Origin: Candidatus Melainabacteria bacterium RIFCSPLOWO2_02_FULL_35_15
GTDB lineage: Bacteria > Cyanobacteriota > Vampirovibrionia > 2-02-FULL-35-15
Assembly (NCBI GenBank): GCA_001784585.1
Contig: MFRN01000037.1
Location: 1 to 45,158 of the forward strand
Direction of reading: 5' to 3'
DNA: 45,158 nucleotides
In this document: piece by piece, positions 7,223-15,659 of the stretch
How the letters are laid out: every line of letters starts with the position of its first letter
Position numbering within the stretch: the first letter of the stretch is position 1
Notes under the pieces: model-generated
The model's database searches: none
The model's input: the letters and a program-made list of their open reading frames with translations, nothing else
What the model was told of the DNA's origin: nothing
Program-made: the position numbers and the translations under genes

Positions 7223-8167
7223 TTATTTTTTCTTTTTTTGTAGTTTTAATAATTCCCGATAAAGCTTTTGCTCTTCTTCGGTAACAATCGTTGGAATATT
7301 TATCTTTACTTTTACAAAATGATCTCCGCGGCCTTCTTTTTTCTGGTAAGGCAAACCTTTTCCGCGCAGTCTTAAAATCTTATCGTTTTGTGTGCCGGGC
7401 GGTACAACCATTTTAACCGGCATATCTACAGTCGGGATCTCTATTTCACTTCCTAAAATAGCTTCAGCCGGTGTAATGGCAATTTCTGAATTAATATCAT
7501 CGCCATCAATTTTAAAAAACGGATGAGGTTTTAATTTGACTATCATATATAAATCACCAGGTGCTCCTCCGTTTCTTCCCGGAAGCCCTTCCCCCGCCAT
7601 CCTGATTTTTGAGTTTTCTCTGACATTTGGAGGGATTTTTACTTCAAGTCTTTTTGATTCATGTCCTGGAACATTAATATCCATTTTTCTTATAGTCCCC
7701 TTGTAAGCTTCTTCCAAAGACAAATGTAAATCAATAGACTGATCTTCTCCGCGCCGTTTTGTCTCGTGGCGTGTATATGTCTGTGTAAAGGTTTCACCAA
7801 AAGGAGAAGATCTGCCTTTTAATGCTTCTCCAAAGAGGATTTCAAAAAAGTCACTAAAAGGCGAATCCTGGGTTTTTGTAAAGCCTTTTGAAAAATCAAA
7901 ATTAAAATCAAATCCCGGTGGCGGTGTAAAATCACTGCCTCCTCTAAAGCTGTTTCCTAAAGTATTGTATTTTCTTCTTTTACCGGCATCACCTAAGACT
8001 TCATAGGCCTCATTAATTTCTTTAAATTTTTCTTCAGCATCTTTATTATTTTTATTTGCATCCGGATGATGTTTACGTGCTAATTTTCTGAATGCAGTTT
8101 TTATTTCCTTTTCAGTAGCGCTGCGCGGAACACCTAAAATTTCGTAATAGTCTTTATACTTGACCAT
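7223..8167 (-). CDS. DnaJ/CbpA-type co-chaperone (type B, no zinc finger)
   Basis: The 314-aa protein starts with a J domain (about 5-70) with the HPD motif at 34-36, which stimulates DnaK ATPase. A Gly/Phe-rich linker (GFDFNFDFSKGF) and the two C-terminal beta domains that bind substrate follow (for example GEGLPGRNGGAPGDLYM). The CxxCxGxG zinc-binding region of classical DnaJ is absent, so it is CbpA/Hsp40 type II. Length is normal for CbpA. A TATAAT lies 7 nt before the ATG, so the message may be leaderless. Confidence 0.92.
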   Translation of the reverse strand: MVKYKDYYEILGVPRSATEKEIKTAFRKLARKHHPDANKNNKDAEEKFKEINEAYEVLGDAGKRRKYNTLGNSFRGGSDFTPPPGFDFNFDFSKGFTKTQDSPFSDFFEILFGEALKGRSSPFGETFTQTYTRHETKRRGEDQSIDLHLSLEEAYKGTIRKMDINVPGHESKRLEVKIPPNVRENSKIRMAGEGLPGRNGGAPGDLYMIVKLKPHPFFKIDGDDINSEIAITPAEAILGSEIEIPTVDMPVKMVVPPGTQNDKILRLRGKGLPYQKKEGRGDHFVKVKINIPTIVTEEEQKLYRELLKLQKKKK

Positions 8168-8174
8168 ATTTTTT

Positions 8175-8180
8175 ATTATA
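8175..8180 (-). promoter_or_regulatory. -10 box of dnaJ/cbpA, 7 nt from start codon
   Basis: TATAAT on the minus strand is followed by seven bases and the ATG at 8167. No SD fits in between. Confidence 0.45.
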
Positions 8181-8198
8181 TCGTTTTACAGTGCCAGA

Positions 8199-8377
8199 GG
8201 GGGTGTGTAAAAAAAATCGAGGGTGTTTTACAGCGCGGGTCCTGTCGCCTTCAGGTACCCTTCAGAGCTTCGTCACACAGTTCCTCGCTCTGAACCCTTC
8301 CCTTTCGGTCGCCGTTGGCGAACCTCGCCCCAGGCGGGCGCCACCCGCTTAGATCCTCGAAAGATTTACACGCCCCC
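8199..8377. mobile_element. GC-rich MITE-like element or IS remnant with inverted terminal repeats
   Basis: The 179-bp element is bounded by imperfect inverted repeats of 23-24 bp. The left end (8199-8222) reads GGGGGTGTGTAAA then TCGAGG. The right end (8355-8377), reverse-complemented, reads GGGGGCGTGTAAA then TTCGAGG. The interior is far more GC-rich than any flanking sequence. It lacks a transposase frame, so it would need to be mobilised in trans. The GGGTGTGTAAA ends recall IS256/Mutator-type ISs; that assignment is inference. No clear target duplication is seen. It sits between the stop codon of the last pilin-like gene and the dnaJ promoter. Confidence 0.6.
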
Positions 8378-8378
8378 G

Positions 8379-8993
8379 CTACGGACTCACAAGACTATAA
8401 CCGACAATCGTACTCCACTCTCCGGTTTCATGAAAAAAATCCGGTGAAATACTATAGTTTGATGTAAGCTGAAACCAGTTATTTTTATTTTCCGGATCTT
8501 TGTCAAGAGAAGTTTTACTTAAACCAATTAAAACATCAGTTGGACCATTTGTAGATATCTGACTTAAGTTTGCTGTTTGATTAAACGGAGATAATAATTT
8601 TCCTGCATTTGGATTTGCTTTTGAGCCAGTCTGAGTGGTAAAGCTTAGTGAAATGTCTTTTGGATCTATATTAACCGGTGAATCAGATACATTACTCCTT
8701 TGAGCAGTTAGTTTCCATGAGTTTAAATTTGTTCTTATTCTGATTGATGATGAACCATAGACAACTGAATTATTTAAATCCGGTGTCAGTTTTAAATTTA
8801 CATTTATAGTTGGATTAGTTCCGGATTTATTATCATTTTCACTATCAGTAATAATTAACTTGCCACTGACAGTAATATTTAATGGTACTGTAGCCTGATT
8901 GGATCTGGCTGTTAAATTACTTAAAACAAAAAACACACAACAAGAAATAATAAGCAAAAACAAAAACCTTGTTGTGTGTGTGTTTATAGTCAT
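8379..8993 (-). CDS. Secreted pilin-like beta-rich protein, paralogue 1
   Basis: The 204-aa protein has a signal peptide (about residues 8-32) and a mature domain that starts VPLNITVSGKLIITD and ends in YSLVSP. It shares with three neighbours the blocks LTPDL, IRIRTN.NSWKLTAQR, AGKLLSPF, KTS and PDFF. Short alternating hydrophobic strands, an N-terminal strand resembling a donor strand, and the GTxxxxITYNLVSP-type last strand suggest an Ig-like secreted subunit such as a pilin or coat protein. It is the most diverged copy and lies at the promoter-distal end of the cluster. No cysteines occur in the mature part. Confidence 0.72.
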   Translation of the reverse strand: MTINTHTTRFLFLLIISCCVFFVLSNLTARSNQATVPLNITVSGKLIITDSENDNKSGTNPTINVNLKLTPDLNNSVVYGSSSIRIRTNLNSWKLTAQRSNVSDSPVNIDPKDISLSFTTQTGSKANPNAGKLLSPFNQTANLSQISTNGPTDVLIGLSKTSLDKDPENKNNWFQLTSNYSISPDFFHETGEWSTIVGYSLVSP

Positions 8994-9059
8994 GAAATGA
9001 AAGATGATTTTGGCTAGGAAACTAGTACTTAAAGATTAGTTCTTCTAGTCTAGTAGATA

Positions 9060-9068
9060 TGTCCTATA
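9060..9068 (-). promoter_or_regulatory. TATAGGACA motif upstream of pilin-like gene 1
   Basis: The nonamer (minus strand) occurs here and twice upstream of paralogue 4 (14115-14123 and 14196-14204). It is a candidate operator or promoter element of the locus. Confidence 0.3.
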
Positions 9069-9143
9069 CATCGTCCATTATTTTATAAAAAAATTATATT
9101 TAAGTTAAAAGAGGCAGATGATTTAAAAAGTCTAAGGAAAACC

Positions 9144-9746
9144 CTATGGGCTAACCAGATTATACGTAATAGTAGTTCTCCATGTGCCTGGCTGGAAGAA
9201 AAAGTCTGGCAGAATGCTGTACAGGGTATTAACCTGAAAATAATTATTAGTGTTTGTATTGTCTCTGGCAGTCGATGTTTTTGCTGTACCGCTGATTACA
9301 TCAACTGGTGCTGAAGTAGAAATACTGCTTAAATCTGTGCCTGCATTAAATGGAGCTACAAGTGTTCCTGCCATTGCATTTGCATTTGTACCGGCCTGAG
9401 TAGTTACTGACAAAGTTATATCCATTGCCACAATGTTTGTAGGGCCTGTATCAATTTCTGTGGTTCTTTGTGCAGTAAGCCTCCATGTAGATCTATTTGT
9501 CCTTATCCTGAAGTTTGCATCTCCGGTTACCGGAGCAGTCCCTAGATCAGGTGTTATAGAGAGGTTTACGTTAATGGTTGGATTTTTACCTGCGCTTGAA
9601 TCATTTGAAGCATCAGAAATTGTAAGGGTTCCATTTACAGTTATGTTTACTGGAATAGTGGCTGACTGAGAATAAGATTTTAATGGTGTTATTAGCAAGA
9701 TTAACAACACAAACAGACCTATAAAAATGTAATATTTTCTTTTCAT
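9144..9746 (-). CDS. Secreted pilin-like beta-rich protein, paralogue 2
   Basis: The ATG at 9746 gives 200 aa, the same length as the other paralogues, and puts the positively charged MKRKYY directly before the signal-peptide core. The longer frame to 9785 would add 13 residues and is not favoured. The mature protein starts near ATIPVNITVNGTLTISD and carries the family blocks SITPDLG, FRIRTNRSTWRLTAQRT, AGTLVAPFN, SGTAKTS, NTNNYFQVN and PDFFFQPGTW, ending in ITYNLVSP. A secreted, probably polymerising or surface-bound subunit is inferred from the beta-sandwich-like pattern and the linked usher-like gene. Confidence 0.75.
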   Translation of the reverse strand: MKRKYYIFIGLFVLLILLITPLKSYSQSATIPVNITVNGTLTISDASNDSSAGKNPTINVNLSITPDLGTAPVTGDANFRIRTNRSTWRLTAQRTTEIDTGPTNIVAMDITLSVTTQAGTNANAMAGTLVAPFNAGTDLSSISTSAPVDVISGTAKTSTARDNTNTNNYFQVNTLYSILPDFFFQPGTWRTTITYNLVSP

Positions 9747-9827
9747 TGATTTTATGTAGGGCTGGTACCATGTATTTCTTTCCACAAATTTCTAAAATAT
9801 ATCTGGTAATTTTGTACCAAAAACAGT

Positions 9828-9855
9828 GCAGGTGCTGACTGTAATCAGCACCTGC
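9828..9855 (-). terminator. Rho-independent terminator after pilin-like gene 3
   Basis: A perfect 11-bp stem (GCAGGTGCTGA and its complement) with a 6-nt loop is followed on the minus strand by ACTGTTTTTGG. It lies 18 nt beyond the stop of paralogue 3 and so separates it from paralogue 2. Confidence 0.75.
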
Positions 9856-9873
9856 AAAAGACCGGATTCTCTA

Positions 9874-10476
9874 TTATGGAGAAACCAGGTTATATGTGAT
9901 GGTTGAACTGAATGTTCCCGGTGTGTAGAAGAAGTCTGGTTGTATGCTGTAAGTTGTACCTACCTGAAACCAGTTGTTAGTATTATTAGCATCTCTTGCA
10001 GATGATGTTTTGGCAGTACCAGTAATAACATCTACAGTAGTTGCAGTAGTAATACTTGACAAGTTAGTTTGTGCGGTAAATGGAGCTACCAGAGCACCAG
10101 CATTTGCATTTGCACTTGAACCGGCTGATTTTGCAATGTCAACCAGCACATCAGTGTCTGCAATGCTTGTATCACCAGCATCTGAAGCAGTTCTTTGAGC
10201 TGTAAGTCTCCAGGCAGAACGATTTGATCTTATTCTGAAGTTGGCACTTCCACTTTGCAGTGTATGTCCAAGGTCAGGAGTTACGGTTAAGCTGACGTTC
10301 TTTGTAGGATCTTTTCCAGCCATTGTATCATTGTCACCATCAGAAACAACCAGTGAACCGTTAACTGCGATTGACAATGGTACTGTTCCGGTTTCTGCCT
10401 TTATCTCCGATATTGTTATTGAATTTACACAGAGTAAAAGCAATATCAATAATAGGCCACGCATTTGTTTTAACAT
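9874..10476 (-). CDS. Secreted pilin-like beta-rich protein, paralogue 3
   Basis: The 200-aa protein has a signal peptide (MLKQMRGLLLILLLLCVNSI) and a mature region starting near TVPLSIAVNGSLVVSD. Family blocks are TVTPDLG, FRIRSNRSAWRLTAQRT, AGALVAPF, TGTAKTSSARD, NTNNWFQVG and PDFFYTPGTF, ending ITYNLVSP. A good SD (AAGGAAGG) precedes the ATG. It is the first gene after the usher-like gene in the direction of transcription and is followed by a strong terminator, so it may be co-transcribed with the usher-like gene. Confidence 0.76.
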   Translation of the reverse strand: MLKQMRGLLLILLLLCVNSITISEIKAETGTVPLSIAVNGSLVVSDGDNDTMAGKDPTKNVSLTVTPDLGHTLQSGSANFRIRSNRSAWRLTAQRTASDAGDTSIADTDVLVDIAKSAGSSANANAGALVAPFTAQTNLSSITTATTVDVITGTAKTSSARDANNTNNWFQVGTTYSIQPDFFYTPGTFSSTITYNLVSP

Positions 10477-10692
10477 AGTTTTTCCTTCCTTTTCTTTCTG
10501 GCAACCTGGATGTTATCTGGATAAAAGCTCTTTGATTCAGAAAATAGTTTGGATATAAATTTTTCCTAGCCATAAGAAAAAAATCATCTTCCAAGTCATT
10601 GACCTTTTGTTCCAATAACCTTTTTTGGTTACCTGTTATTTCTATCGGTATAAAATATCTACTCGGTAAAAATTAGGATCATATTACTAGGA

Positions 10693-13353
10693 CTAAAATA
10701 CTTTAATTTCTTCAGGTCTGGTTTTATATCTGATTGGAAGATATAAGTTATCTGTCTTTTCTTTTCCGCGGACTTCAATTTCTATATCTTTCGGGTCAGT
10801 TTCTAATTCTTCCGGAAGAAAATCAGGGTCAACTTTTAATTTATATTTCCCGGGTTTTACATCACCTAGTACAAATGAACCTCCTGTATTTGTTAAGGTC
10901 TCAAAATCAGTACCTTCCAGATAAACTCTAATATCCTGGAGCTCTGGTTCTTCTTCCAGTTTCATTGTAGGTTCATTTGCAAGCTCAAGTTTTCCACCCA
11001 GTGCTCCAAAGTAAGCAAGAATAAAATCAAAATTAGTTTCTTTCCCGGCTTCCACCTTTATATCTACTGATTCCGGTGTAATTGATGTTAAATAGGATGG
11101 CAAATCAGAAAATTCAATTCTTACTCTGTGTATTCCTGGAGTAAGGCTGGGGAATTCAAATGTGCCATCTTTATTTGTAGTAATTGTATAATTCCCGAGA
11201 TTAATTCTTACGTTTTCCATTCCTCTTTCTCTTGTTGTTCCGGGCAGAATAATTTTATTCTGCTCAGTTGGCTTTCTTGGATTTTCTTCCAGTACAATAA
11301 CTTTTCCTTTTATTCTGCCAATGGTTTGCGCTTCTCCAAGGCCAGGCAGGTTACCTGCATTTTTTCCGCGCAGGTTGTACTGGTAGATACCGGAGAGTGA
11401 TGTTAAGAACTTTGTTTTATCATAGTGAAGGCTGAGCTGGTTTTTTTTATTTACCTGATAATTCAGATTCAAACTGTAAAGTGAACTTGGGCTGTCATTC
11501 TGTGGTAGCAGAGCACCGGTTTGTACTAAAAGATTCAATTTATTATCTAAAACAGGTCCAAGATTTATTCCAAATCTTACTTGTTTATACAGCTTACTGC
11601 CCTGTATATAACTCTGTAGTCCAAAAAATCTATTAATTGATTTATTTATATTTAAGTCATAAGTTTGAAACTTGGTTACTGATTTTTCTCCAATTGATGT
11701 TAACTTTAAGGGTTTGTCATCTGCAAAAGTAAAATAATTTATACTTGCGGAAAAGTTTACCGTTCTCCAGTTTTTCATTATGCTTGTTCTAAAAAATGAG
11801 TTGGTTCTTCTTTCTATTAAAGTTTCCAAATCTACTGTGGAAATGTTTGTCATGTTTATAGGAAATAAAACATTGTCAATTGCTCTTGTAGAAGATATTT
11901 GAGAATCATTCTTTGAGTAGCTTGTTAATATTGTTGGACCTTTTTTAAATGGAGTAGCTGAAGCAAAGATATTTGTAACACTGTAGTCATTTGGTTTTTG
12001 AGAGTTTAGATTATATTTTCCAATTGAGTGACTAATGCCAATATTTGATCTTGGAGGTGTTATATTTAATCCAAAAGTTGTTTCATTTCTGTCATGGTAA
12101 AAAGGATTTCCCGATAAAGTATAAAATCCAGGAGAATAATAAGCTCCTTTTGAAAAGAAACTTACCCAGTCTTTTGGTTTTAATCTGACTAAAATATCTC
12201 CGCCAGGACCCTGACTTGATTTTCCTGTAACCTTGTCATTTGAAGCGCCAAAAGCTAAGTTTAAATTTCCTTCAAAATATTTCCCGGTTTTTGTAGCGCT
12301 TAGTGCAAATAAACCTCCGCTTTGTTTTGATCTGACAAGTGAGTTTGTTATGGTGTCATTGTAAGCAGCTTCTCCAATTGAAAACTGCCATGGCTTATTC
12401 GGTGAAGTGGACCATTCAGCGACTTCTGCAAGCCTTCCATATTTTACAAATGAAAGATTTCTGCCTAAGATTTTTCCATTTGTAGGTAAAAAACCTGTTC
12501 CAAAAATAAATTTACTGTCCTTTAATAGTCCGCTAGTCTGAACCTGTACTCCTCTAAGAGTAATTCCTCCGATTAACGGTGACTTGATTAAACTTAGAGG
12601 TTTATCACCTACATGAACCTGAAATGGAGAGGCATTTTTATAATATGAAAAATTCCCGGTATCAAAATTTATTAAAGGTGCATTAGTCCCTGACTTTATC
12701 AGAAAATCAGATGTTATTGCATAATTATCATTATGAAAGCCATTGTTTATTTCTGTCCTTCTTGTGTAAAATGACTGACTTTGTAACCAGTCAAATGAGT
12801 TTGTAACCGTTAAATAGTCTACTAGTAAATCTTTTACACCTTTTCTTGCAAGCGGTTGTACGGTGCCGACAGCATTACTTCCACTTCCAATAGTATTATT
12901 TAATACTAACTTGTCTTCTTCATTATCTTTTGATGTTAATCCAAGCAACATTACCAGTGCATTTGTCGGAACCATTTGTGAATCAGCTCCTGTAATTATT
13001 CTGTTATAGCCAAAGAGGGTTTTAAATGGTCTGTTGTTTATAGTTACTATTCCGTTTCTGACATTTAACTGAACTATTGATTTATCTCTGTACCTTTGAA
13101 TTGTAATTGTGCCATTTACAAGATCTGTGGTTACCCTGTCCTGTAATTTTTCAGCAATTTCTTCAAGTGGAAAAAGCCATATATCGTTGTCAAGAATCGG
13201 TTTTTTGTTAAATATTACTTTTTGATCGTTCAGTATAACTTCAGGCGGTTCAGGTACGAGCTGAGAAATGACAGGTAAAGCAAAAATAAATGAAGTATAC
13301 GTCAATAAAGACAAAACAAATAAAATATTTTTTCTTTTTAAGAAAAATTCCAT
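10693..13353 (-). CDS. Usher-like outer-membrane beta-barrel protein with N-terminal stalk domain and C-terminal Ig-like domains
   Basis: From the ATG at 13353 the protein is 886 aa. The frame extends to 13404, but those 17 codons run over a hairpin, and MEFFLKRKNILFVLSLLTYT makes a normal signal peptide. Residues about 35-150 resemble copper-amine-oxidase N-like stalk repeats (EVILNDQKVIFNKKP, then TGADSQMVPTNALVMLLGL). Residues about 165-660 are rich in alternating aromatic/polar strands, as in a large outer-membrane barrel. The last about 200 residues hold two carboxypeptidase-regulatory-like beta domains (GNYTITTNKDGTFEFPSLTPG and GGSFVLGDVKPGKYKL). Flanking pilin-like genes suggest it secretes or anchors those subunits. 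A homologous usher family is not proven, and no chaperone gene is adjacent. Confidence 0.65.
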   Translation of the reverse strand: MEFFLKRKNILFVLSLLTYTSFIFALPVISQLVPEPPEVILNDQKVIFNKKPILDNDIWLFPLEEIAEKLQDRVTTDLVNGTITIQRYRDKSIVQLNVRNGIVTINNRPFKTLFGYNRIITGADSQMVPTNALVMLLGLTSKDNEEDKLVLNNTIGSGSNAVGTVQPLARKGVKDLLVDYLTVTNSFDWLQSQSFYTRRTEINNGFHNDNYAITSDFLIKSGTNAPLINFDTGNFSYYKNASPFQVHVGDKPLSLIKSPLIGGITLRGVQVQTSGLLKDSKFIFGTGFLPTNGKILGRNLSFVKYGRLAEVAEWSTSPNKPWQFSIGEAAYNDTITNSLVRSKQSGGLFALSATKTGKYFEGNLNLAFGASNDKVTGKSSQGPGGDILVRLKPKDWVSFFSKGAYYSPGFYTLSGNPFYHDRNETTFGLNITPPRSNIGISHSIGKYNLNSQKPNDYSVTNIFASATPFKKGPTILTSYSKNDSQISSTRAIDNVLFPINMTNISTVDLETLIERRTNSFFRTSIMKNWRTVNFSASINYFTFADDKPLKLTSIGEKSVTKFQTYDLNINKSINRFFGLQSYIQGSKLYKQVRFGINLGPVLDNKLNLLVQTGALLPQNDSPSSLYSLNLNYQVNKKNQLSLHYDKTKFLTSLSGIYQYNLRGKNAGNLPGLGEAQTIGRIKGKVIVLEENPRKPTEQNKIILPGTTRERGMENVRINLGNYTITTNKDGTFEFPSLTPGIHRVRIEFSDLPSYLTSITPESVDIKVEAGKETNFDFILAYFGALGGKLELANEPTMKLEEEPELQDIRVYLEGTDFETLTNTGGSFVLGDVKPGKYKLKVDPDFLPEELETDPKDIEIEVRGKEKTDNLYLPIRYKTRPEEIKVF

Positions 13354-13371
13354 AAGAGAAAATAAGTAAAA

Positions 13372-13385
13372 GCGGGCTAACCCGC
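13372..13385 (-). terminator. Terminator-like hairpin between pilin-like gene 4 and the usher-like gene
   Basis: On the minus strand GCGGG-TTAG-CCCGC is followed by TTTTACTT. It lies just upstream of the preferred usher-like start (13353), about 105 nt after paralogue 4. It could terminate or attenuate, setting a high pilin-to-usher ratio. The stem is short. Confidence 0.45.
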
Positions 13386-13489
13386 CATTATTTACATTCC
13401 ACAAATGTTTCCATTAAAAAATATTTTTAAATAAAAAGTACTTTAATCCTAGTCTTATATGTTTAGTAATAATATTCTTTTGCATTTAT

Positions 13490-14092
13490 CTAGGGTGAAA
13501 TCAGGTTATATGTAATTATCGTACTATATGTACCTGGTGAATAGAAAAAGTCAGGAGCTATTCCATAAGTAGTGTTTACCTGGAAATAGTTATTTGTATT
13601 TGTTCCATCTTTTGTACTTGAAGTTTTTGCTGTTCCGCTTACTACACCAGCACTTGAAGCAGTAGGAATACTGTTCAGGTTTGTTAAAGCTGTAAATGGT
13701 GAAACAAGCATCCCTGCATTTGCATTTCCAGTTGAGCCTGCAGACTTTACAACTGATAAAGTAACATCAGTATCTGCAATGCCAGTGGAACCTGCATTGG
13801 AAACAGTTCTTTGAGCTGTAAGCCTCCAGGTAGTTCTATTTGTACGGATTCTAAAGTTTGCCTGACCAGTTACTATAGCTGCACCAAGATCAGGAGTAAC
13901 TGATAAGCTAACATTTATATTTGGATTTATACCAGACATAGAGTCATTTGAAGCATCAGTTATAACTAAAGCCCCGTTTACAGTAACATTTACAGGGACA
14001 GTAGCTGCTGTCTGGGCAGAAGCAATCTCTTCAGATGAATATAAAACAAGGATCGCTGTGACTGCAATTGAAAGAAGTAATTTTTTTACCAT
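13490..14092 (-). CDS. Secreted pilin-like beta-rich protein, paralogue 4
   Basis: The 200-aa protein has a signal peptide (about residues 1-26) and a mature region starting near ATVPVNVTVNGALVITD. It has the blocks SVTPDLG, FRIRTNRTTWRLTAQRT, AGMLVSPF, SGTAKTSS, NTNNYFQVN and PDFFYSPGTY, and ends ITYNLISP. The SD is strong (AGGAGG 5 nt before the ATG). It is the first structural gene of the block, directly downstream of the response regulator, and two TATAGGACA motifs lie in the gap. It may be the major subunit; that is inference from position and SD strength. Confidence 0.76.
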   Translation of the reverse strand: MVKKLLLSIAVTAILVLYSSEEIASAQTAATVPVNVTVNGALVITDASNDSMSGINPNINVSLSVTPDLGAAIVTGQANFRIRTNRTTWRLTAQRTVSNAGSTGIADTDVTLSVVKSAGSTGNANAGMLVSPFTALTNLNSIPTASSAGVVSGTAKTSSTKDGTNTNNYFQVNTTYGIAPDFFYSPGTYSTIITYNLISP

Positions 14093-14114
14093 AGGACCTC
14101 CTGTATTTTTAACG

Positions 14115-14123
14115 TGTCCTATA
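14115..14123 (-). promoter_or_regulatory. TATAGGACA motif, copy proximal to pilin-like gene 4
   Basis: The motif lies 22 nt upstream of the start codon. The identical nonamer is at 14196-14204 and 9060-9068. It may be a regulator site or part of a promoter. Confidence 0.3.
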
Positions 14124-14195
14124 TATCTATATTCGTCATTGCCTGAAAACCTAAATCCTGTAAATGTTCTAGTACACTGGAAAATTTGGTAGAGT

Positions 14196-14204
14196 TGTCC
14201 TATA
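14196..14204 (-). promoter_or_regulatory. TATAGGACA motif, distal copy upstream of pilin-like gene 4
   Basis: Second copy in the 141-nt gap between the response-regulator gene and paralogue 4, about 81 nt from the proximal copy (close to eight helical turns). Confidence 0.3.
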
Positions 14205-14233
14205 GTAATAAGAGTATTTTTTTATCTGCAAAT

Positions 14234-14932
14234 TTATCTTATCCGAGTTATTGACCATTTGTTGTTATATTTTGCAGGCTTTACATGTGAAAAATCCATA
14301 TTTTCATTTTTTTCTTTTAACAATCCAGCTTGAATTGCAATAGCTACTGCCTGAGACCTGTTTGAAATCCCCAGTTTTTTAAATATATTACTTATATGAT
14401 TTCTTATTGTAGAAGTGGTCAAATACAAAACTGATGAGATTTTTTTATTGGTTTCTCCTTTTGCAAGCAATGATAATATTTCCAGTTCTCTGCTTGTAAT
14501 GCCAGCTTCATTTATTATTTCCCGAGCTAAGCCAAGCTCTCTGTTGTTATTTTTAAATTTTTCATGTGTGTAGCGTAACGTGCGAACTATTTGTTTTGCA
14601 CTTACTTCTCCTTTAATAAAATAGCCTTGTGCACCGCTTTGTATAGCTCTTACTACTATATCTTCATCATCAAGACTGGTAAAAATAATCACAGGTTTAT
14701 TATGATAACTGGAATAAAATTCATAAAATGTTTCAAAACCTGTACTATCCGGTAACACCAAATCAAGTAAAACCAGATCAACAATTTTTTCCAGAGCTAA
14801 AGCTATTCCGCTATAAAGACTATTAGCAATAGTAACTTCACAAACACACTCGTTTTTTAAATATTCATTTATTAAAGAAACATCGGCAGGATTATCATTA
14901 ATAATTAGAACTTTAAGATTTTGTTCGTTCAT
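14234..14932 (-). CDS. NarL/FixJ-type response regulator
   Basis: The 232-aa protein has a receiver domain (about 8-120) with the acidic pair ND near 13-14, the phospho-acceptor Asp in VDLVLLDLVLPD, the Thr/Ser of IIFTS and the Lys of YFIKGE. A LuxR-type helix-turn-helix follows (about 145-205; ITSRELEILSLLAKGETNKKI and IRNHISNIFKKLGI). A short basic tail follows the HTH. It lies at the head of the pilin/usher-like block on the same strand and is its most likely regulator; no histidine kinase is adjacent. The ATG is not preceded by a clear SD. Confidence 0.9.
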   Translation of the reverse strand: MNEQNLKVLIINDNPADVSLINEYLKNECVCEVTIANSLYSGIALALEKIVDLVLLDLVLPDSTGFETFYEFYSSYHNKPVIIFTSLDDEDIVVRAIQSGAQGYFIKGEVSAKQIVRTLRYTHEKFKNNNRELGLAREIINEAGITSRELEILSLLAKGETNKKISSVLYLTTSTIRNHISNIFKKLGISNRSQAVAIAIQAGLLKEKNENMDFSHVKPAKYNNKWSITRIR

Positions 14933-15045: not shown

Positions 15046-15229
15046 CTTAAATGTGTCTGCAATGTATGAAGATCGTGTGCAGATAATAGCTATTAGTTTT
15101 TTAAATAGACTTAATTTATCTGCAGCAATATAAAACGCTCCCTTCAAACCGACTGTCTCTGGAGCAAGCTCTCGAGTTTTTCGCTCAGGCACAATAAAAA
15201 AAGCAAGCCAGATGGCTTGCTTTTTTTAT
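15046..15229 (+). ncRNA. Candidate small RNA, about 185 nt
   Basis: The segment lies between a -10-like TATAAT and a strong terminator, without an open frame. TGCAGATAA at 15078-15086 pairs perfectly with TTATCTGCA at 15116-15124. CTATT (15090-15094) pairs with AATAG (15104-15108) inside that hairpin. The size is like that of 6S RNA, but I do not recognise a 6S signature. The terminator also serves the convergent gene, so the whole call is tentative. Confidence 0.3.
15196..15229. terminator. Bidirectional rho-independent terminator
   Basis: AAGCAAGCC and GGCTTGCTT form a 9-bp stem with an AGAT loop, flanked by an A-run and a T-run. It works for the minus-strand gene at 15261-15659 and for any plus-strand transcript from 15046. 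Confidence 0.85.
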
Positions 15230-15260
15230 TTTATTTACTCTAGCTAATTATTACCAGTTA

Positions 15261-15659
15261 TTACCATTTAAACGGTTCATAATCAGTAAATTTGCCTGCC
15301 CAGCTGTAGTTTTCTGCTGTCCATGGTTTATCCCAGCCGTACTGGATGCCATCATATGCACCCATTACTATGCCTGATACTCCACCAGCTACTGCACCGA
15401 CAACACCACCGGTTAAAAATCCAACTGTCCTTTGTACTCCGCCATCTTTTTTCCCAAGTGCTTCGGCAGTGGCATCAGTTCCCCACATCCAGCCTTTTAC
15501 AAAGCCTCTGCTTAAACCAACTACCGGTCCTACTACAACTCCTGTAATAATACCTGTAGTTTGTTTGAGAATCTCTTCACCATCAGCTTTAGCTTGCATT
15601 GTGGTCATTGGAAACAAAAAGCTAACAACTAGTAAAAGTAAGAACAAATTCTTTTTCAT
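15261..15659 (-). CDS. Small exported glycine-zipper protein
   Basis: The 132-aa protein has a signal peptide (MKKNLFLLLLVVSFLFP, cleavage near AKA) and two Gly-rich amphipathic segments (TGIITGVVVGPVVGLSRG and GGVVGAVAGGVSGIVMGA) of glycine-zipper type, which usually pack in or on membranes. The C-terminal YEPFKW tail is aromatic. The layout recalls small exosortase-associated-like proteins, but the family is not certain. SD AAGGAG precedes the ATG, and a strong terminator follows, so it is a single-gene unit. Confidence 0.7.
   Translation of the reverse strand: MKKNLFLLLLVVSFLFPMTTMQAKADGEEILKQTTGIITGVVVGPVVGLSRGFVKGWMWGTDATAEALGKKDGGVQRTVGFLTGGVVGAVAGGVSGIVMGAYDGIQYGWDKPWTAENYSWAGKFTDYEPFKW

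Follow-up and report, generated by a model that had tools for sequence, protein, structure and literature searches.

Does a locus that encodes pilin-like subunits and an usher-like barrel, with no chaperone gene beside them, represent a fibre machine of a new kind, or a known kind that has become hard to recognize? The locus lies at 8379-14092 on the minus strand of the window (the whole stretch of DNA that was analysed, 45,158 nt), whose closest relatives among named records are Candidatus Melainabacteria genomes. In the order of transcription it encodes subunit 1, an 886-aa protein and subunits 2, 3 and 4. We conclude that it is very probably a divergent chaperone-usher (CU) pilus or fibre system, most likely a distant CU branch that is missed by standard annotation. 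The features of the locus, including two on a second contig of the same genome (C41), are as follows.

8165-8378, minus: GC-rich, repeat-containing spacer, the site where the conserved locus breaks off; relatives have subunit 5 and the chaperone here
8379-8993, minus: subunit 4, 204 aa, the most divergent of subunits 1-4
9144-9746, minus: subunit 3, 200 aa counted from an inner ATG (213 aa from the listed GTG start at 9785)
9827-9856, minus: terminator-like hairpin between subunits 2 and 3, 13 pairs followed by a T-rich tail
9874-10476, minus: subunit 2, 200 aa (ORF and alignment), clade s2
10693-13353, minus: usher-like outer-membrane protein, 886 aa (Pfam, AF2, Foldseek)
13490-14092, minus: subunit 1, 200 aa, with signal peptide, N-terminal donor-strand-like segment ATVPVNVTVNG, WRL motif and C-terminal strand ITYNLISP
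14234-14932, minus: NarL/LuxR-type response regulator, 232 aa (Response_reg and GerE), upstream neighbour
15261-15659, minus: secreted glycine-zipper-like protein, 132 aa (family F3), upstream of the locus
C41:34959-35516: subunit 5 of the window's genome, which follows subunit 4 in relatives
C41:35552-36490: chaperone of the window's genome, 312 aa, following subunit 5

The original prediction, made from the sequence alone, described four secreted paralogues of about 200 aa with shared sequence blocks, and both descriptions proved accurate. The four ORFs encode 204, 200, 200 and 200 aa, the others are 41-48% identical to the first, and an alignment of the four has a mean column identity of 68%, with 63 invariant columns that include the W and L of a W-x-L motif. 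The block WRLTAQRT is exact in three of the four and reads WKLTAQRS in the other, and all four end in YNLVSP, YNLISP or YSLVSP. After the signal peptide, subunits 1-4 carry an alternating strand of the ATVPVNITVNG type (consensus A-T-V-P-x-x-I-T-V-N-G), and a strand of the ITYNLVSP type stands at the end. The subunit tree supported the clades s1 (98/95), s2 (100/99) and s4 (100/100); s1, s2, s4 and s5 each form a single orthologue group across species (s5 with weak support), and s3 does not quite form one. Since the positions have their own orthologues in related species, the likeness of the four subunits is far beyond chance, and the subunits have separate roles that have been kept. The hairpin between subunits 2 and 3 is a candidate for setting subunit ratios. 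The four small proteins matched no curated family in Pfam, and in NCBIfam subunit 3 gave one weak match to a sortase-type surface protein (0.00054, far below the cut-off).

In the 886-aa protein, a Cu_amine_oxidN1-like N-domain (Pfam, residues 41-148) is followed by a barrel (about 177-689) and two CarboxypepD_reg-like C-domains (about 706-877). We built an AF2 model with 11 family members (pLDDT 72, pTM 0.48) and compared it with the PDB using Foldseek. Matches 1-13 were all FimD or PapC (E 4.7e-21 to 3.6e-11) and spanned nearly the whole length of the model; the first non-usher matches came at 2.7e-9. TM-scores against the ushers were low (0.3-0.5) and identity was about 9-13%, so that the model gives good support for the kind of protein and leaves its details uncertain. 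As modelled, it would be an outer-membrane usher with a periplasmic N-domain, a wide barrel and two C-domains. FimD and PapC carry a plug domain inserted in the barrel. The 27 strands predicted at 177-689 are separated by gaps of at most 34 residues in this model of moderate confidence, which leaves no Ig-sized insert, and an inserted plug domain is therefore not visible. The likeness to the type 1 and P pilus ushers thus extends over N-domain, barrel and both C-domains, whereas the low identity, the lack of a visible inserted plug and the families matched by the N-domain (Cu_amine_oxidN1) and the C-domains (CarboxypepD_reg) set the protein apart from them. The Usher family (PF00577) had no match in the 886-aa protein or anywhere in the window's genome, and a tblastn search of plasmids with the 886-aa protein found none.

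TonB-dependent receptors stood lower among the structural matches, at about 1e-7. They would suit a role of the 886-aa protein as a substrate porin or receptor, extended by Ig-like domains, with the small proteins being independent surface proteins. We consider this very unlikely, since ushers are ahead by many orders of magnitude and both protein families occur in exactly the same eight of 146 genomes. The original prediction had named two findings that would speak against it, a large protein that is a soluble repeat protein or known porin, and small proteins that occur without the barrel. The model resembles neither kind of protein, and none of the 146 relatives has the small proteins alone.

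Those eight genomes are among the 11 of family f1. The conserved gene order in the relatives is usher, three subunits, a short subunit and the chaperone. A first subunit often precedes the usher; two relatives (L057 and L059) lack it. In all seven f1 relatives with the locus, subunit 5 and then a PapD-like, two-domain Ig-like periplasmic chaperone, a secreted protein of 287-350 aa, come directly after subunit 4 (families F0 and F2). In the window's genome the same pair lies at C41:34959-36490, and the chaperone there is intact and the sole copy of its family. The absence of a periplasmic chaperone, the key argument of the original prediction, thus holds for the window contig but not for the genome or the seven relatives, and is a property of the contig only. 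A new, chaperone-independent fibre system, whose subunits exchange strands with one another at least in the window's genome, would agree with a contig that has no chaperone gene beside the locus. Such a system is highly improbable, since the genome's only chaperone of the family is intact behind subunit 5 on C41 and seven relatives have theirs within the locus; the arrangement argues for a broken divergent CU system instead.

The locus breaks off in the spacer at 8165-8378. A 97-bp part of this spacer recurs without change close to the end of contig C2 (C2:10314-10410), and weaker copies occur at C38:884-913 and C13:46544-46581. It resembles a dispersed repeat, and it sits at a synteny break. 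An RNA gene in the spacer was unsupported by Rfam. Relatives have a radical-SAM gene and DnaJ side by side, some 45 kb downstream of the pilus locus. Here the two are separated, DnaJ standing next to subunit 4 in the window and the radical-SAM gene next to subunit 5 on C41. Both new junctions fit a circular excised element, which we therefore considered for the 45-kb segment that separates subunit 4 from DnaJ. We rejected this element because C41 runs past the segment and shows no overlap between its ends, and because a 2.8-kb part of the segment otherwise on C41 was found elsewhere on the window contig (31646-34405, compared with G001:C4:50907-53701). Mapping of the window contig and C41 on a relative revealed further break points, which together with the 2.8-kb piece point to a real genome rearrangement or a misassembly at repeats. 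Ordinary rearrangement or misassembly is therefore our preferred explanation for the split.

The subunits, the 886-aa ORF and the response regulator are all on the minus strand, as the original prediction had stated; its further claim that the locus is under this NarL-type regulator found no support in the comparison with relatives. Six relatives have contigs that reach far enough upstream; in none of them does a response regulator stand between the locus and the 132-aa gene, and all six have the 132-aa protein upstream. We thus rejected control by the regulator as a conserved feature. Several other observations were made in this region. L058 and L059 have two copies of the 132-aa protein, and in the window a perfect 18-base inverted repeat (15193-15230), capable of a strong hairpin, lies downstream of its gene. 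Between the response regulator and subunit 1 (14093-14233, minus) one frame translates as KILLLL*DNSTKFSSVLEHLQDLGFQAM, perhaps what is left of a receiver domain. Where the window has the response regulator, L058 (8039-8479) and L061 (7079-7594) have genes that by eye look like tandem CsrA-type RNA-binding domains.

The chaperone was modelled with a pLDDT of 80, and no C-terminal membrane helix was predicted. Its top structural match was WxLIP of Enterococcus (2.7e-10), followed by CfaA (7e-9), PapD (4e-8), FimC (9e-8) and EcpB (2e-7), with DraB and Caf1M also among the matches. The PapD_N family (PF00345) found no match in the window's genome, the chaperone on C41 included. A cyanobacterial homologue detected with the chaperone profile (L135, 1.5e-27), which is flanked by small secreted proteins and by a large CarboxypepD_reg protein, passes the PapD_N cut-off (26.4 against 23 bits). 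Through this intermediate the chaperone family can be linked by homology to PapD, and its membership of the PapD superfamily gains support. The predicted folds of usher and chaperone both match CU proteins and the locus of the relatives includes the chaperone, which speaks against the view that the locus lies outside the CU kind. The pilin-like subunits, the usher-like barrel, the two Ig-like (CarboxypepD_reg) C-terminal domains and fibre assembly were judged correctly in the original prediction.

The best structural match of the chaperone raises another explanation, a WxL/WxLIP-like surface complex in a diderm, in which the 312-aa protein would hold WxL-type proteins at the surface or wall and the barrel would serve another purpose. 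The WxLIP_PGBD family (PF06030) matches the chaperone weakly (3.5e-5, 24.3 bits, below the cut-off of 27.3), a homologue in L139 passes that cut-off with 28.3 bits, and the W-x-L motif of the subunits has an invariant Trp and a nearly invariant Leu. The predicted insertion of a WxLIP strand into WxL (PMC10599100) resembles donor-strand complementation. Unlike the WxL/WxLIP clusters of Gram-positives, however, the system has subunits that do not match the WxL domain (Pfam, up to E 1), a chaperone with no predicted C-terminal membrane helix, and a predicted usher as partner in the outer membrane; W-x-L is also missing from the subunits of other orders. We regard this explanation as improbable and retain the CU reading.

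Subunit 5 is shorter than subunits 1-4 and begins at the segment that follows their N-terminal strand. The strand is absent in all eight genomes, and the protein is Cys-rich in all but one of them. Since it can accept a strand and has none to donate, subunit 5 is likely the tip subunit. In two genomes of other orders (L063 and L064) the subunit adjoining the usher likewise seems shorter at the N-terminus. From the CU parts we infer donor-strand exchange, this tip position, polymer formation and adhesion as the function. Sec would export the subunits as incomplete Ig-like domains, and once in the periplasm these would borrow a beta-strand from the two-domain chaperone (C41:35552-36490). Next, the 886-aa usher would take the chaperone-subunit complex via its periplasmic domains. 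Cys-rich subunit 5 would go first, the N-terminal strand of each incoming subunit would replace the chaperone strand, and the chain would be threaded out through the barrel.

Several findings count against a CU system. No window protein matches PF00577, PF00345, PF05229 or PF04449, the chaperone and the usher are on different contigs in the window's genome, and the usher model combines low TM-scores with the pLDDT and pTM given above and no visible plug. Searches of the PDB by sequence and by profile, with the subunits, the chaperone and the usher as queries, returned no relevant match to a pilus protein, and hhalign found nothing when profiles were compared with individual Ecp proteins of E. 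coli K-12. The markers of the archaic class (spore coat U, PF05229) and of the alternate class (the major subunit family Fimbrial_CS1, PF04449) had no match in the window proteins, which places the locus, by curated models, outside the named CU classes.

Among these classes, the alternate (class 5) pili, such as CFA/I (CfaA chaperone, CfaB pilin, CfaC usher) and the CS1 type, are similar in several respects. The chaperone fold matches CfaA, the subunits have an N-terminal donor-like strand and a C-terminal end strand, and a cyanobacterial usher-like protein resembles CooC_C (E 0.048). Separate systems in the bacterial class of the window include a subunit resembling CS1 pilin (E 0.037, 14.6 bits against the PF04449 cut-off of 21) and a chaperone resembling TcfA (2.6e-4). 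In contrast to alternate pili, the window locus has no curated family match, no two-domain adhesin and a different usher N-domain, and its host lies outside the beta- and gamma-proteobacteria to which the alternate class is restricted (PMC4654587). Archaic (sigma) CU pili (cccS/cccP/slr0019) have already been described in Cyanobacteria (PMC4390875, PMC4654587), and CU pili are therefore not new to the phylum. They share with the locus the phylum and the three component types, but carry PF05229, PF00345 and PF00577, none of which is found in the window proteins. As far as the literature searched shows, what is new here is a CU branch without PF00577 and PF05229; the search found no paper joining Melainabacteria with pili and usher.

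Related operons appear to occur through the Vampirovibrionia and also in photosynthetic Cyanobacteria and on plasmids of Deinococcus. Of 386 genomes drawn from the phylum, 44 matched the chaperone profile. Profiles revealed neighbourhoods of related chaperone, subunit and usher-like genes in other orders of the class (L063, L064, L065, L098-L101, L103) and in cyanobacteria (L135-L138, L140) that are presumably photosynthetic, as judged by class label and genome size; lineage names beyond those in record titles are likewise presumptive. A simple script called the genes in these other genomes, and some starts may be wrong. The distant usher-like proteins are recognized mainly by their C-terminal domains and position, so that their equivalence to the 886-aa protein is inferred. 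Subunit families of different orders align over their full length (F7 with A4, probability 92%), and W-x-L was seen only in family f1. Related neighbourhoods on two Deinococcus plasmids consist of genes annotated as hypothetical or carboxypeptidase-like. These are four-gene sets (L125:5851-11536 and L126:4920-10493) of a secreted protein, a chaperone homologue, a small secreted protein and a CarboxypepD_reg protein of 1,013-1,090 aa. In the cyanobacterial L141 (3883-7278) two proteins of about 425 aa come after the chaperone in place of a single large barrel protein, perhaps a split usher.

The likeness of the chaperone to WxLIP, together with the strand insertion reported for WxLIP and WxL (PMC10599100), makes common ancestry worth testing; our literature search found no paper joining WxL with PapD. 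It is conceivable, if rather doubtful, that the CU pili of diderms and the WxL/WxLIP complexes of Gram-positives descend from one strand-lending machinery, and that the Cyanobacteriota-Deinococcota branch, with chaperones that are PapD- and WxLIP-like, W-x-L in its f1 subunits and a plugless usher, keeps an intermediate form. We offer this as a conjecture because the subunits match no WxL domain and W-x-L was found in f1 only.

This structural link between CU chaperones and Gram-positive WxLIP proteins is the most interesting side of the locus, and the chaperone family could be used to test for a common ancestry of WxLIP proteins and PapD-type chaperones. For the bacteria themselves, the locus points to a pathway for surface fibres that escapes standard family models, and its annotation would add attachment organelles to lineages known mostly from genomes.
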